From the NCBI RefSeq assembly GCF_000196175.1, contig NC_005363.1, forward strand, positions 806,001 to 870,000: 64,000 nucleotides of DNA, in the 5' to 3' direction. The notes beneath the pieces are model-generated. The model was not told the DNA's origin, searched no databases, and was given only the letters and a program-made list of their open reading frames with translations. Origin of the DNA: Bdellovibrio bacteriovorus HD100 (GTDB lineage: Bacteria; Bdellovibrionota; Bdellovibrionia; Bdellovibrionales; Bdellovibrionaceae). Position numbers and translations under genes: made by a program. Below are positions 26,285 to 33,909 of this stretch, piece by piece (position 1 is the stretch's first letter; each line of letters starts with the position of its first letter).

Positions 26285-26773
26285 GTGAGTTTTTCTGATG
26301 CCGCTGACTTTGCGAAGTTCTATGAGGCCCATGCACCCAAAGTGCGGGGCCTGTTGTTTCGTTTGGTTGGTGAGTCCGCCTTGAGTGACCTGACTCAGGA
26401 GGCATTTATGAAAGCCTGGGAACATCGAAACAAGTTCCGTGCGGAAAGTGAGGCCTCAACCTGGCTTTATCGTATTGCCTATAACTGCGCTGTGGATCAT
26501 CTGCGCAAGGCGGGGCGCAAGGAAGAAGTCAGTCCCGAGCAAGTGGAAGAAAGTCTGGAAAAGAATCTTTCCAACCGAGAACTGGTTGATCTGGCCTTGG
26601 GCACATTGGAGATGGATATGCGTGCGGTGGTGGTTCTTTTTTATCTGGAGGATCAATCCTTGAAGGATATTGCGCTGGCACTGGAGATCCCCGAGGGAAC
26701 AGTGAAATCCCGTTTAAGCCTGGCTCGTCAGAAGATGAGCGATTTACTGGGTAAGAAAGGAGTGAGTCTATGA
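26285..26773 (+). CDS. ECF-type RNA polymerase sigma factor
   Basis: 162 residues with region 2 (LFRLVGESALSDLTQEAFMKAWEHRNKF, EASTWLYRIAYNCAVDHLRK) and region 4 (VVLFYLEDQSLKDIALALEIPEGTVKSRLSLARQKM). Regions 1 and 3 are absent, as in extracytoplasmic-function sigma factors. GTG start 8 bases after the Spy-like gene. Overlaps the next gene by 4 bases (ATGA). Likely held by the product of that gene and released in response to the periplasmic signal. Confidence 0.95.
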   Translation: MSFSDAADFAKFYEAHAPKVRGLLFRLVGESALSDLTQEAFMKAWEHRNKFRAESEASTWLYRIAYNCAVDHLRKAGRKEEVSPEQVEESLEKNLSNRELVDLALGTLEMDMRAVVVLFYLEDQSLKDIALALEIPEGTVKSRLSLARQKMSDLLGKKGVSL

Positions 26774-27078
26774 GTGATGATTCATTCAAAAATTTTCTTA
26801 AAGAAAATGCGGCCCCGGTGCCGGACGCCCCTTTGGGAGAGTCCTCGCGGATCTGGCGCCACATCGAAGATCGCAAGCACCGTCGTCAGCGGGCGTGGTG
26901 GGTGCTGGTGCCTGCGATGGCGGCGACTCTGGCCCTGGTGATTGCGGTGAAAACCCAGAAGCCTGCGGTGGTGGCAGGGGCGGAAGAGGATTATCTGTAT
27001 CAGGAATGGAGTGAGTTTTCCAAGGAAGTCGATTCCGACTTTGATCAGGACATGGCTATCATGTTCAACGGCGAATAA
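26770..27078 (+). CDS. Probable anti-sigma factor, single membrane helix
   Basis: 102 residues. The N-terminal 45 are cytoplasmic (DSFKNFLKENAAP; SSRIWRHIEDRKHRRQR). One helix follows (AWWVLVPAMAATLALVIAV), then a short acidic periplasmic tail (EEDYLYQEWSEFSKEVDSDFDQD). There is no zinc-binding HxxxCxxC motif. Size and topology match CnrY-type anti-sigma factors better than the ZAS family. Translationally coupled to the sigma factor. The role is inferred from context and topology. Confidence 0.75.
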   Translation: MSDDSFKNFLKENAAPVPDAPLGESSRIWRHIEDRKHRRQRAWWVLVPAMAATLALVIAVKTQKPAVVAGAEEDYLYQEWSEFSKEVDSDFDQDMAIMFNGE

Positions 27079-28242: not shown

Positions 28243-28453
28243 AGTCTTCTCCTTTTTTGTAGAACGTCTTCAGTATTCTCCTTGTGGGGAAGGGGTCAAT
28301 TTTTAGGAGGTCTGAGTGGGGGGTCTTTGTTGAGATAAATAGAAGTCACTCTACTAAAAGTCCTGAGCTGCCTTACGAACGTGTCATGTTCTGTCATCTA
28401 CGCAGGTATGAGCGGTAATTGGACAGAGGTGAGGAGTATTTCTTTTATTCAGT

Positions 28454-28481
28454 TAAATATCGACTAAAAGGGCGCCGATAA
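28454..28481 (+). promoter_or_regulatory. Predicted sigma28 (FliA)-type promoter of the fibre gene
   Basis: TAAA (28454-28457), 16 bases, GCCGATAA (28474-28481). The -10 is identical to the FliA consensus. Transcription would start at about 28488, so the mRNA would be nearly leaderless, and no ribosome site is present before the ATG at 28489. In B. bacteriovorus a FliA-like motif has been linked to attack-phase genes (recalled literature). Confidence 0.65.
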
Positions 28482-28488
28482 GTATTTC

Positions 28489-31400
28489 ATGAAGAACCAC
28501 GGAACGTACTTTTTCTTCGCTTTCTTCTTTCTGTCTCAATTTGTGACAGCGGCCCCTAATTCTCTGACTTACCAGGGGCGGATTCTGAAAGTGGATGGAA
28601 CTCCACTGGAATACAATAACGTCAGCTTCAGTTTTGAAATCACCAGTCCTGACGGTTTGTGTGTGATTTATCGTGAACAGGTTAACGGGATCAATCTTGC
28701 CAACTCTGGGGGCGTATTTGACGTGCCTATTGGCAACGGAACCAAAGGGTATCCGGCGGCACCGACATTTAAACTTTTGGATGCCTTTCAGAACTCCGGA
28801 ACCAGCTTCACCTGTGATGGCGGAGCCATATACACTCCGGCCTTTGATGAGATTCGTCGTCTGCGTGTGCAGTTTCATGATGGCTCTGGTTGGAAGCTGA
28901 TCTCTCCTGATTCTGAAGTCCGTTCTGTGCCCTATGCGGGCTTTGCTTACTCGGCAGCGAAGCTGGGCGGCAACACCGCCGCAGACTTTGTGTTGCGGTC
29001 GGTGATTCCGACGTGCGGGGCAGGGACATTCCTTAGCTATAACGGAACTAATTTTTCCTGTGCGGCAGTGGCGGGTGCCAGCGGGGGGACTGTTACAGAT
29101 GTGACTTCCTCCAATGCCTATCTGACTGTTGTGAATGGAACTTCAACTCCCACGCTGACATTGAATGTGGGGACGGCGGCGAATACGGTGGCGGCGGGGA
29201 ATGATGCCCGTCTTTCCGATGCCCGTGTTCCAACGGGCAGTGCGACCGGTGACTTGAGTGGAAATTATCCCAACCCGACGGTCGCAAAGATCCAGGGTGT
29301 GGATGTGTCGTCAGCGGCTCCGACCAGCGGGAACTTCCTGAAGTACAATGGGGCTCAGTGGGTTTCATCGGCCATCGCCACCGGGGATGTTACTGGCTTG
29401 GCCGCCACACTCAGTGGCTACGTCACGCAAAGTTCTTTTAATACTGCGGTGGGTGATGCAGGTTGTTCGACGGGACAGACTATGTACTGGTCTGCGGGCC
29501 TGGGTAAATTCCTCTGTCAGAACGTGGACGTCGGGGTAGGCTCCCTGACGGTCAACGCGCCACTGACTCAAGGGGGGACGGCAAGTGCTCCGCTGCTGGG
29601 GATTCAGACGGCAAGTGGGTCACAGGCAGGGGCTTTGAGTGCTGCCGACTGGACAACCTTTAATGGCAAGCTGGGCACAACATTAAACTCTGCCAACATC
29701 TTTGTGGGGAATGGCTCTAATGTTGCCACAGGTGTGGCAATGAGCGGAGACGCTAGTTTAAGCAATACAGGAGCTGCAACGGTGGTCGGGCTTCGTGGAA
29801 AGACCATCAGTGCCACGGCACCAACTTCCGCTGGGCAGATTCTAAGGTATGATGGCGTCTCGTCCTATGTTCCGGCCTTCCTGTCTCTCGCAGATATTCG
29901 TTCAGCGGTGACGGCCACCAACACCATGTTCCCGACAACCAGTTGTACGTCTTCGCAGACACTGACCTGGTCCTCTTTGACGGATACGATGGTGTGTTCC
30001 AATATTGTGGTTTCAGCCTCGAACTTTGGATCACAGACAGCAAAAACATTCCTGGCGGCACCCAGCGGAGGGAACGGGACCCCGTCTTTCCGAACCATCG
30101 CCGCCGCGGATCTGCCGGATGTGTTTTTAAAGAATGGCAACACCTTTGCTTCGGACGTCAGCCTTGGAACCGATGACTGGTATGGATTGAATATTGAAAC
30201 CAACAATCAAACCCGCATTGCAGTTCATCGTGACGGGAATGTGGGGATCGGCGCGACAAGTCCTTCTGCCAAACTGCAGGTGCACGGAACTGCCGGAGTG
30301 AACGGTGACTACGGTGTGGCAGCCTTTCAGGATGCATCCGCCAACGGACTGAGTCTGGGCTATGACAGCGGTAACAGTTGGTCGTGGTTGTATTCCCGTA
30401 CAGTCGGGACAGCTCCGCGCGGAATGGCTTTTTTCACCCATAACAGCAATCAAACGCCGGACATGCTGATCACAAGTGGCGGTCTTGTCGGGATTGGCAC
30501 GGCCACTCCGGCAGCACCGTTGCATGTGACGGGGAATGTGAACGGTACCATTCTTGCCGGGCGGGCGGTGGATTCAAACATCGGGGCCGAGATCGCGTTT
30601 TACAAATCGCGTGGTACGGATGCGGCCCGCACAGCGGTGCAGGCCGGAGACCGCTTGATGGGCCTTTATGGTTTGGGGGCGTATAATGCAACCAACTTCT
30701 CGTCAAATTCCGGTGCGGTTCAGATTCTGGCGGCCGAGAATTTCACAGCAACCGCCCACGGGACCAGTATTGATTTTGGCACGACGGCTTTGGGGACGAC
30801 GGCTCGTCAAACGCGCATGACGATTTCTTCTGAAGGCGCGGTGGGTATTGGAACCACCAACCCGTCAGGCATTCTGCACGTGACGGGTTCTTCCACGGCG
30901 GATGTCATACAGTATCTTTTGAATACGGATGACACAGGAGCCGCGTCGCGAGCACTCTTCCTGTTTGGAACAGCTCCGTCGGGGGCTCGTTATGGTTATC
31001 TGTCCCATCAAGGGGCGGGGTACACGGGGCCGGGCTCCTTGACAGCGCAAAAACCACGGGCAACTGTGGTGGCGGGTACGGACACGGGTGGATTGAATCT
31101 CTATTCGACCTCGCAAATTGGAATGTGGATCGGTTCCACTGAAGCGCTGCGGGCCAGTACCAACGGCTACATCGGTATTCAGGCCGACACCCCAAGACAG
31201 CCGTTGGAAATCAAAAAAGGCCATTTCTTCCATACGGGCGGTGACTTGGTTCACTTCTTCAACAGCTATCACAATGGCACTCTCAGATATGGGGGATATT
31301 CTGGAGCTTCGGGTTACGCTGGTGGAGTGGGCTTTTCGCCGGTGAATGGGTCTTTGTACTTTACGACTTCCGCAGATGCGGGGGCGGCCGATGCCGCGGT

Positions 31401-31935
31401 CACAAACTCGGTGACTCATATGTTGATTGATAAGAACGGAAATGTCGGGATCGGAGCCACGATCCCATCTTATAAGCTTCATGTCGTGGGAACCGCGGGA
31501 TTGAGCACGGGAACGGCTTGGACCAACGCTTCGGACCGTCGTCTGAAAGACATCCATGGCAACTATGAATACGGACTGAATGAGATTCTGAAGCTGCGCA
31601 CGATTCGTTATAACTATAAAGAGGGCAATCCCCTGAAGCTGCCATCGGATGTTCCAATGACGGGATTTGTCGCCCAGGAAGTCCAAGCGGTGATTCCTGA
31701 TGCAGTAAAAAAACGGGAAGACGGCTATCTTGAATTGAATGTGGATCCGATTCATTGGGCGACGGTGAATGCTGTCCAGGATCTGCATGGTATCTGCCAA
31801 GACCATGATCGTCGCATTGCTTCCGTTGAAGAGGATAATAAGATTCTGCGTCGGGAAAATGCCGAACTTAAAAAACAGTTGCAGCAGCAGGCTGCGGATT
31901 TGGAACTGATCAAAACCCGTTTGGGTATCAAATAG
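28489..31935 (+). CDS. Phage-tail-fibre-like protein with S74 intramolecular chaperone
   Basis: 1148 residues. Signal peptide, then a conserved N-terminal domain (SLTYQGRILKVDGTPL). A long Gly/Ser/Thr-rich shaft follows. From residue about 580 come five spaced GIG-type repeats of form G-x-[VI]-G-I-x4-P-x3-L-x-[VI] (near residues 580, 665, 783, 892, 983). The C-terminus is a peptidase S74 endosialidase-type chaperone: ASDRRLKDIHGNYEYGLNEIL with the Ser1015/Lys1020 self-cleavage dyad, then FVAQEVQAVIPDAV and a final coiled coil. S74 domains trimerise fibres and then cleave themselves off. Similar chimeric fibre proteins in B. bacteriovorus (mosaic adhesive trimers) have been reported to recognise prey. 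The family assignment is from visible motifs; the prey role is inference. Confidence 0.9.
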   Translation: MKNHGTYFFFAFFFLSQFVTAAPNSLTYQGRILKVDGTPLEYNNVSFSFEITSPDGLCVIYREQVNGINLANSGGVFDVPIGNGTKGYPAAPTFKLLDAFQNSGTSFTCDGGAIYTPAFDEIRRLRVQFHDGSGWKLISPDSEVRSVPYAGFAYSAAKLGGNTAADFVLRSVIPTCGAGTFLSYNGTNFSCAAVAGASGGTVTDVTSSNAYLTVVNGTSTPTLTLNVGTAANTVAAGNDARLSDARVPTGSATGDLSGNYPNPTVAKIQGVDVSSAAPTSGNFLKYNGAQWVSSAIATGDVTGLAATLSGYVTQSSFNTAVGDAGCSTGQTMYWSAGLGKFLCQNVDVGVGSLTVNAPLTQGGTASAPLLGIQTASGSQAGALSAADWTTFNGKLGTTLNSANIFVGNGSNVATGVAMSGDASLSNTGAATVVGLRGKTISATAPTSAGQILRYDGVSSYVPAFLSLADIRSAVTATNTMFPTTSCTSSQTLTWSSLTDTMVCSNIVVSASNFGSQTAKTFLAAPSGGNGTPSFRTIAAADLPDVFLKNGNTFASDVSLGTDDWYGLNIETNNQTRIAVHRDGNVGIGATSPSAKLQVHGTAGVNGDYGVAAFQDASANGLSLGYDSGNSWSWLYSRTVGTAPRGMAFFTHNSNQTPDMLITSGGLVGIGTATPAAPLHVTGNVNGTILAGRAVDSNIGAEIAFYKSRGTDAARTAVQAGDRLMGLYGLGAYNATNFSSNSGAVQILAAENFTATAHGTSIDFGTTALGTTARQTRMTISSEGAVGIGTTNPSGILHVTGSSTADVIQYLLNTDDTGAASRALFLFGTAPSGARYGYLSHQGAGYTGPGSLTAQKPRATVVAGTDTGGLNLYSTSQIGMWIGSTEALRASTNGYIGIQADTPRQPLEIKKGHFFHTGGDLVHFFNSYHNGTLRYGGYSGASGYAGGVGFSPVNGSLYFTTSADAGAADAAVTNSVTHMLIDKNGNVGIGATIPSYKLHVVGTAGLSTGTAWTNASDRRLKDIHGNYEYGLNEILKLRTIRYNYKEGNPLKLPSDVPMTGFVAQEVQAVIPDAVKKREDGYLELNVDPIHWATVNAVQDLHGICQDHDRRIASVEEDNKILRRENAELKKQLQQQAADLELIKTRLGIK

Positions 31936-32286: not shown

Positions 32287-32463
32287 ACTCTTCCTGTCAA
32301 AGTTTTAGACACCTTTTGGGCCTGCATTGCAGGGCCCTCATTGAGCTTCGCAGGGTATTTCTTTCATAGCACCATTTCTCAAACCCGGTTCTATTTGAAT
32401 AGAGGGTGCCAGCGTCCATTCACGCTTCTTGCTTTATGGCTGGTTGCAATGAATGGAGATTAT

Positions 32464-33909
32464 ATGAAAGCTTCTTTAGTCGGAGTCGCAGCAGCGGTTC
32501 TTATGAGTGTTTTGGCTGGTTCCCCTGTCTCTGCCCAGGTCGCGGATGCTTCCGCCCAGGTTGTGAGTAAGAGCCAGTTGATCGTAGGTAAGCGTTACTA
32601 TATTTCAGTCGATACGCTGAACGTTCGCTCCAGCAACTCCACCACCGCTAACAATGTGATTGGCAAGCTGTCCAAGAATGATGTGGTGGAAGTGTACGAC
32701 GTGTTGAACGAGGCGACGCCGCTGGTTCAGGTGAAGATCATCAAGTCCACCACTGTCTCTCCATATATATCTTCTGATTTCTTTGTGTCCAAAGATTATC
32801 TGAGTGAGCGTGAGCTGACCTTGCCAACGTCCCGTTATTTTGTGGTTCAGAATATTGCCACAGAAAAAACCCGTATTTATGAGCGTTGCACGGCGACTCC
32901 GGGATGTGCTCATAAAATGGTGATGGAAACCGACATGGTTGTGGGCCGCCCTGAAGAGGGTGATGGTCAGGATGACAACGCCTATAAAACATGGGTGGGT
33001 CATTCCCGTATTTCTGAATGGGTGAAGTTCTATCAGGACGGCAAGGCCTTCTATCCTCGCTGGTACACTCCAGGTCAGAACATCAAAGACATTCCAGATC
33101 CAGTGACAGACAGCATGAGCCTCTACATGGGTGCAAGAAAATGGCTTCGTAAAAATGAACAGGGTAAGACTTCCAACTATGGCGCCTTTGGTTGGTATGC
33201 AGCCAAGTTGACTCCAGCCGGTGAAAACGGCGGTGTGAACTATCAATGGATCCACGGCACGATGGGCTGGGGCAAAGATGGTTCCAAACCAATTGAAATC
33301 ACACGCATGAAGATGATCAACTTCTTCAGCAACCCGGGTTCTCATGGCTGCACGCGCTTGGAAAATCAGGCGGTGGCCTACATGAGACACCTCTTGGGTC
33401 CGGGCACTGACATCTATCGCGTGTATGCTCGAGAGGCTTCTCGTGAGGCAGCTCCGTTCTCCAGATACCGTGATTCCCAGCGCCCTCTTCCTTGGGAATG
33501 GATGTTGTTGACCAACGGCGCGGCGCAGTCCAACGGTTTGACGGCGGATGCAGCGACGATCCGTGCTCAGGGCATCAGTGCTGTTCCTGGGGTGAATCTG
33601 ATTGAACGTGGTGTTTATCAGGTGGACCGCTATCCGACGGTGATGCCTTTGAACTACAGTAAATCTGCGGCTTCCGGCTTGTCCGGGGATCGTTATGAGA
33701 TCGACAAGAATCTGAAAAAGGGCCAAGGCTCAAACTTCCGTGGCTATTTCCTGGTTGATGAAGGTCGCTTCGTAAGTTACTCCCACCCGAACTACAATGC
33801 AACGGGCGGTGCGATTCGTGTAGGTGGTATGGCTGACTTCATGGACTCTGTTCCTGCGCTCCTGCAGGCGGGTGCTGGTAACTACTATCCACCAGCTATT
33901 ATCAAATAA
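32464..33909 (+). CDS. Secreted L,D-transpeptidase (YkuD)
   Basis: 481 residues. Signal peptide (ASLVGVAAAVLMSVLAGSPVSAQ), then a bacterial SH3-like domain (YYISVDTLNVRSSNSTTANNVIGKL). The YkuD catalytic domain has YFVVQNIATEKTRIYE, YQWIHGTMGWG and the active-site SHGCTRL with Cys296. About 130 residues follow the catalytic site. It cross-links peptidoglycan peptides or replaces terminal D-amino acids in the periplasm. L,D-transpeptidases of B. bacteriovorus have been reported to modify and strengthen the prey wall during invasion, and this gene is a candidate. The ATG at 32464 has a TGGAGAT ribosome site and starts the signal peptide. Confidence 0.93.
   Translation: MKASLVGVAAAVLMSVLAGSPVSAQVADASAQVVSKSQLIVGKRYYISVDTLNVRSSNSTTANNVIGKLSKNDVVEVYDVLNEATPLVQVKIIKSTTVSPYISSDFFVSKDYLSERELTLPTSRYFVVQNIATEKTRIYERCTATPGCAHKMVMETDMVVGRPEEGDGQDDNAYKTWVGHSRISEWVKFYQDGKAFYPRWYTPGQNIKDIPDPVTDSMSLYMGARKWLRKNEQGKTSNYGAFGWYAAKLTPAGENGGVNYQWIHGTMGWGKDGSKPIEITRMKMINFFSNPGSHGCTRLENQAVAYMRHLLGPGTDIYRVYAREASREAAPFSRYRDSQRPLPWEWMLLTNGAAQSNGLTADAATIRAQGISAVPGVNLIERGVYQVDRYPTVMPLNYSKSAASGLSGDRYEIDKNLKKGQGSNFRGYFLVDEGRFVSYSHPNYNATGGAIRVGGMADFMDSVPALLQAGAGNYYPPAIIK

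Follow-up and report, generated by a model that had tools for sequence, protein, structure and literature searches.

The prey range of Bdellovibrio is believed to depend on its numerous and redundant fibres, the regulation of which has received little study, and a long fibre gene in Bdellovibrio bacteriovorus HD100 raises the question of what such a gene encodes and how its expression is begun. Within the 64,000-nucleotide stretch of chromosome that we analysed (the window; NC_005363.1, positions 806,001 to 870,000), the open reading frame of this gene opens with the signal peptide that an earlier note on this DNA had recognized (MKNHGTYFFFAFFFLSQFVTAAPNS), and its domain matches make the product almost certainly an S74-type fibre of the mosaic adhesive trimer (MAT) family (Table 1). 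The fibre family indicated in that note stands: the conserved N-terminal domain of the family, about 130 aa long, is matched at E 4.9e-72, and the gene is one of 13 S74 genes that we count in the HD100 genome, the same number of S74-type MAT fibres as has been reported for the strain (Caulton 2024, PMC10769870). Matches to tail-fibre PHROGs raised the candidate of a phage origin, which we rejected on the grounds that the chromosomal context and the MAT N-domain mark a host gene; the gene is ordinary for B. bacteriovorus, its family having been published in 2024.

Table 1. Features of the fibre gene and its start, in window coordinates.
Feature	Position	Strand	Basis or remark
S74-type MAT fibre gene, 1148 aa	28489..31935	+	ORF; inferred locus tag bd0884
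-35-like element TTAAA, spacer 17 to CCGATA	28453..28457	+	HD100 consensus TTAAG-N16-CCGATA (PMC3627812)
-10 element GCCGATAA, exact	28474..28481	+	
7-nt gap GTATTTC between -10 and ATG, without Shine-Dalgarno	28482..28488	+	transcript predicted to begin at the ATG or a few nt from it
ACGT box CGGAACGT, consensus YKGHACGT	28500..28507	+	ACGT begins 15 nt past the A of ATG
Signal peptide, about residues 1-21	28489..28551	+	sequence
MAT N-terminal domain, residues 12-170	28522..28998	+	NF053851 Bdello_MAT_N, E 4.9e-72 (NCBIfam)
Shaft of the fibre with its beta-helix tip, residues 171-1014	28999..31530	+	solved MAT structures 8ond, 8oml, 8ojn; tail-fibre PHROGs
C-terminal S74 chaperone/protease, residues 1015-1148	31531..31932	+	predicted cut directly before Ser1015
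Ser1015	31531-31533	+	
Lys1020	31546-31548	+	

The locus tag follows from the neighbourhood. An RT-PCR primer for HD100 bd0881 maps at window positions 26516-26535, and an open reading frame at 32341-33909 is compatible with the L,D-transpeptidase Bd0886; counting from bd0881 and bd0882 and using the match to Bd0886, we infer the tag bd0884, of which we found no mention in the main text of the literature searched. Upstream of the fibre gene, at a distance of about 1.4-2.2 kb, are bd0881 and bd0882 (window 26285-27078); bd0881 encodes an ECF sigma factor associated with predation efficiency.

The C-terminal domain matches Peptidase_S74 (PF13884) over residues 1015-1074 with a score of 43.2 bits (cut-off 22), and the protein contains a single SDxxxK, the SDRRLK at 1015-1020, so that the Ser/Lys dyad described as intact in the earlier note is indeed present; Ser1015 and Lys1020 are invariant across 17 aligned sequences. 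The “GIG-repeat shaft” of the same note fares less well: GIG motifs exist, as part of a VGIGxxxPxxxLxV beta-helix repeat that aligns with solved MAT structures, but there are just four of them (at 586, 668, 786 and 987), and the term overstates their part. Sequence comparison links the protein to the solved MATs 8ond (E 6.5e-12), 8ojn, 8oml, 8on4 and 8ol4; in its shaft and tip region it matches the tips solved for Bd2133, Bd3182, Bd1334 and Bd2439, as well as phage tail-fibre families. The MyRF ICA domain is matched both by sequence and by fold (Foldseek, E 5e-5), and Foldseek also finds MAT tips. In an AlphaFold monomer model built with 17 related sequences, the S74 half is confident (pLDDT mostly 80-93) and the monomeric tip poor (below 60 in much of its length), for which reason we used the S74 part alone.

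The closest guide to the processing of the fibre is Bd3182, which is cleaved at S782 and whose processing is lost in an S782A mutant (Caulton 2024, PMC10769870). The last 135 or so residues of our protein align closely with Bd3182 across the cleavage serine, and the residues flanking the cut are nearly identical (GTAGLSTGTAWTNA/SDRRLKD in the fibre protein, GTAGLSTGSAWTVA/SDARLKD in Bd3182); by this homology, the fibre very probably cleaves itself directly before Ser1015. The two proteins match at 46% over a 274-residue stretch, with the differences mostly in the tip. Bd0884 thus resembles the published S74 subgroup of MATs in its signal peptide, long fibre, S74 domain with SDxxxK and a C-terminus that is nearly that of Bd3182, but its tip, ahead of the S74 domain, is dissimilar, and Bd0884 carries the main-group MAT N-domain, which Bd3182 lacks by the model applied, a sign of mosaicism. 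With the Peptidase_S74 chaperones of phage K1F endosialidase, the T5 L-shaped tail fibre and MyRF it shares a self-cleaving Ser/Lys C-terminal chaperone fold, the difference being that the fold is borne here by an exported bacterial fibre and in those cases by virions or by a membrane transcription factor. Among genus orthologues, the N-terminal 350 or so residues match at 70-90% and the tip and S74 half at 50-77%, so that, as judged from these alignments, the tip has diverged moderately; none of the orthologues compared showed a tip swap. By analogy with its family, the protein would assemble as a trimer and take part in prey binding and recognition; display on the predator surface is known for other, mCherry-tagged MATs.

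How, then, is the gene started? The sigma28 -10 element to which the earlier note had drawn attention is an exact match (GCCGATAA), and the -35-like TTAAA at N17 departs from the published TTAAG at N16 by one base and one additional nucleotide of spacer. In Karunker 2013 (PMC3627812), TTAAG-N16-CCGATA is reported in 92 of 140 attack-phase promoters, global FliA control is inferred, and cell-surface anchors are noted among FliA targets; with its exact -10 and its deviating -35, the promoter of the fibre gene resembles the type described there for the attack-phase regulon. FliA is active on other HD100 promoters in E. coli, and fliA is reported to be essential. The promoter match makes transcription of the fibre gene by sigma28 very likely, and it predicts expression of bd0884 in the attack phase from a start adjoining the gene.

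The ATG lies exactly 7 nt past CCGATAA, and codon inspection between the upstream in-frame stop and this ATG revealed neither another start codon nor a Shine-Dalgarno sequence, in agreement with the earlier reading that the gene has no ribosome site. It follows that a transcript from the sigma28 promoter would have a leader of at most 7 nt, and we consider it quite probable, at a little less than the confidence given to the promoter, that the mRNA is leaderless. No Rfam element was found, and the 5' mRNA structure is unremarkable (z -1.4). In its predicted start codon at or near the 5' end and its want of a Shine-Dalgarno sequence the gene resembles leaderless bacterial mRNAs at large, from which the Bdellovibrio case differs in its association with a single alternative sigma factor and with a further motif downstream.

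The spacing is a property of the genus. Three instances of CCGATAA-N4-12-ATG occur in the window, against 0.55 in shuffles; across the HD100 genome, CCGATAA-N7-ATG occurs 35 times against 3 at the control spacing N13, and the distance from CCGATAA to ATG peaks at 7 (29 of 100 among the sites listed). Nine other Bdellovibrio genomes contain 26-35 instances at N7 against 4-13 at N13: CCGATAA-N7-ATG is a genus-wide architecture. Of the 33 MAT starts in which just one in-frame ATG is present, 24 have exactly N7. An SD-like sequence precedes 67 of 169 other genes but just one of the 46 MAT starts compared with them. Within those 46 promoters, TTAA stands before CCGATAA at spacing 17 in 6 genes and at 18 in 9 (15 in total), the two commonest canonical -35 positions, so that the TTAAA-N17 of our gene is normal for the family. 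A strict genome-wide search for a TTAA -35 returned 27 matches against 20 in a reversed control; as so poor a detector, it was set aside for the spacing between -10 and ATG.

Three further observations concern the breadth of these elements. In 11 of the 46 MAT promoters (loci L096, L097, L125 and L140 among them), GTTAA lies just 4 nt before CCGATAA, either replacing the -35 or occurring alongside it, and such promoters possibly form a second class. A weaker excess of CCGATAA-N7-ATG appears in another family of the phylum (f14; genomes G040, G077 and G109), with 17-24 instances against 5-11, which suggests that leaderless sigma28 starts may predate Bdellovibrio. The MAT N-domain itself reaches well outside the genus: 81 of the 240 phylum genomes searched contain it, in up to at least 17 copies per genome.

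Downstream of the start codon, the MAT genes share an oriented ACGT box, found at +12 to +27 in 52 of 56 non-redundant starts, a proportion that does not count independent events because the genes are paralogues. A named subset of these starts, from strain kdesi and metagenome-assembled genomes, has the box in every resolved start except one doubtful case. Matches to the full pattern, CCGATAA-N7-ATG-N6-24-ACGT, number 95 across 12 Bdellovibrio genomes, where a TCGA control gives about 20; in the other families tested there are few. If anything, HD100 is poor in ACGT (0.22% of positions), and the box motif shows no excess across the window as a whole (19 occurrences, 17 expected); its position alone is unusual. 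Reading the box as a palindromic operator was considered and rejected, as the YKGH flank is constrained mainly on its 5' side. Promoters are not mentioned in the main text of Caulton 2024 (PMC10769870), nor are leaderless starts or an ACGT box in the accessible portion of Karunker 2013 (PMC3627812) or the other literature searched; as far as that literature goes, the family-wide combination of leaderless sigma28 start and box looks new.

The box is not confined to MAT fibres. In an evenly spread 1.19-Mb sample of HD100 stretches, where a simple codon model served to call genes and a hydrophobicity threshold to judge export, a sigma28-like -10 lies 5-10 nt before the ATG of 34 called genes. Exported proteins of at least 600 aa are encoded by 8 of the 10 that carry the box and by none of the 24 that lack it (p 2.5e-6), and with MATs left out by 6 of 8 against 0 of 24 (p 3e-5); both p values are descriptive and not those of a pre-set test, as the box criterion (any ACGT in the first 30 or so nucleotides) was set once MAT genes had been inspected, and the classes for size and export once the first lipoprotein matches were known. 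Most carriers other than MATs are lipoproteins, their domains being RCC1, NHL, Kelch/DUF5122 or bacterial Ig; they belong to several unrelated families with largely unrelated N-termini. Several N7 genes have no ACGT box. From this distribution, the box appears to mark a surface-adhesin regulon.

Might the shared start simply have been inherited, the 5' ends of MAT genes having been duplicated or converted along with the N-domain and the box being without function? The genes are paralogues with a conserved N-domain and most boxes fall in frame 0, as this history would have it. We nonetheless consider it unlikely: ACGT is invariant in redundancy-filtered starts whose box surroundings and sequence upstream of the -10 diverge, the box differs between genes in position and frame, and it recurs in unrelated lipoprotein families and in the 5' UTR of a MAT gene with a leader. 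That gene, a Bd2740-like NS74 fibre, has its ATG 57 nt past the -10, a leader of about 50 nt and an SD-like sequence, and its box, conserved in two further species, lies inside the untranslated leader; this speaks for an element linked with the 5' end of the transcript, and is hard to reconcile with a constraint on coding. Such a constraint, a Gly/Cys-Thr-Tyr/Leu step in the signal-peptide n-region required for export or sorting, we regard as less probable again than inheritance. The box carriers are exported proteins and 41 of the 52 MAT boxes read as xT[Y/L/S/F] in frame 0, so that Gly-Thr or Cys-Thr in the signal peptide could make some contribution at the protein level; all three frames are used, however (41/5/6), 11 boxes lying in the other two, and threonine is encoded as ACG followed by T in just 2.4% of instances in HD100 yet in every frame-0 box.

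The least probable of the alternatives, and a very improbable one, is that the -10 match is incidental and that another promoter yields a longer leader devoid of a Shine-Dalgarno sequence. The weakness of the -35 in many of the 46 MAT promoters would be expected on this account, but the -10 is exact, a T in the -35 region is kept in 37 of the 46, the N7 peak recurs in ten Bdellovibrio genomes, and the + strand upstream of the gene yielded no sigma70-like promoter.

We therefore prefer a reading in which FliA (sigma28) would transcribe the fibre gene in the attack phase from a -10 abutting the start codon, giving an mRNA that is leaderless or nearly so. The signal peptide would export the protein, which would trimerize along its shaft with the aid of the C-terminal S74 domain; that domain would then cut itself off directly before Ser1015, exposing the fibre tip for contact with the prey surface. 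Across the family, the proposed start would consist of a sigma28 -10, the ATG 7 nt beyond it, and an oriented YKGHACGT lying no more than about 30 nt from the 5' end of the transcript; this box is most likely a cis element in the early-transcribed region, acting as RNA or as direction-dependent DNA and read by a putative trans factor that would co-ordinate the production of large surface adhesins. Grounded in the domains, the dyad, the promoter match, the N7 spacing and the box with its distribution, all read from the DNA, this account as a whole (MAT fibre, leaderless sigma28 start, self-cleavage and co-ordinating box) is probably correct, and we hold with similar confidence that the box is a real functional element. 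We find action of the box at the RNA level and at the DNA level evenly balanced.

Taken further, these features may amount to a dedicated adhesin start code, an idea that we favour slightly: the abutting sigma28 -10 would yield a leaderless attack-phase mRNA, and the oriented box would be read by a putative regulator (an RNA-binding protein, an sRNA or a DNA-binding factor) setting the amount or timing of each fibre or adhesin, so that adhesin genes could be predicted from DNA alone. By our sequence comparisons, the start design is common to almost the whole MAT family and to some unrelated surface lipoproteins; neither this sharing nor the ACGT box figures in the earlier note. If the idea is right, the shared start and motif would tie the entire adhesin set to the prey-seeking stage; they would provide a DNA signature for further adhesins, of which RCC1, Kelch and Ig-like lipoproteins are already emerging; and they would make a Gram-negative predator a tractable system in which to study leaderless translation under a single alternative sigma factor. 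It is this start and box design, more than the already known fibre, that merits a test at the bench.

Two minor observations concern the lipoproteins. One that bears the box (L197:1774-5106, - strand), with bacterial Ig domains, weakly matches the phage tail-fibre adhesin Gp38 (E 0.006). A recurring motif, C-[S/T/N]-[L/I/M]-x-A-[N/S/K]-[I/L], follows the lipobox of large lipoproteins (L170, L182, L197 and L203), in forms such as CSMEANI, CSMEASI, CSIDASI and CTLSASL, and may be a surface-sorting signal; it is found also in short lipoproteins directly upstream of fibre-like genes, namely L190 (a small lipoprotein upstream of L113), L195 (upstream of L111) and the upstream region of L112.
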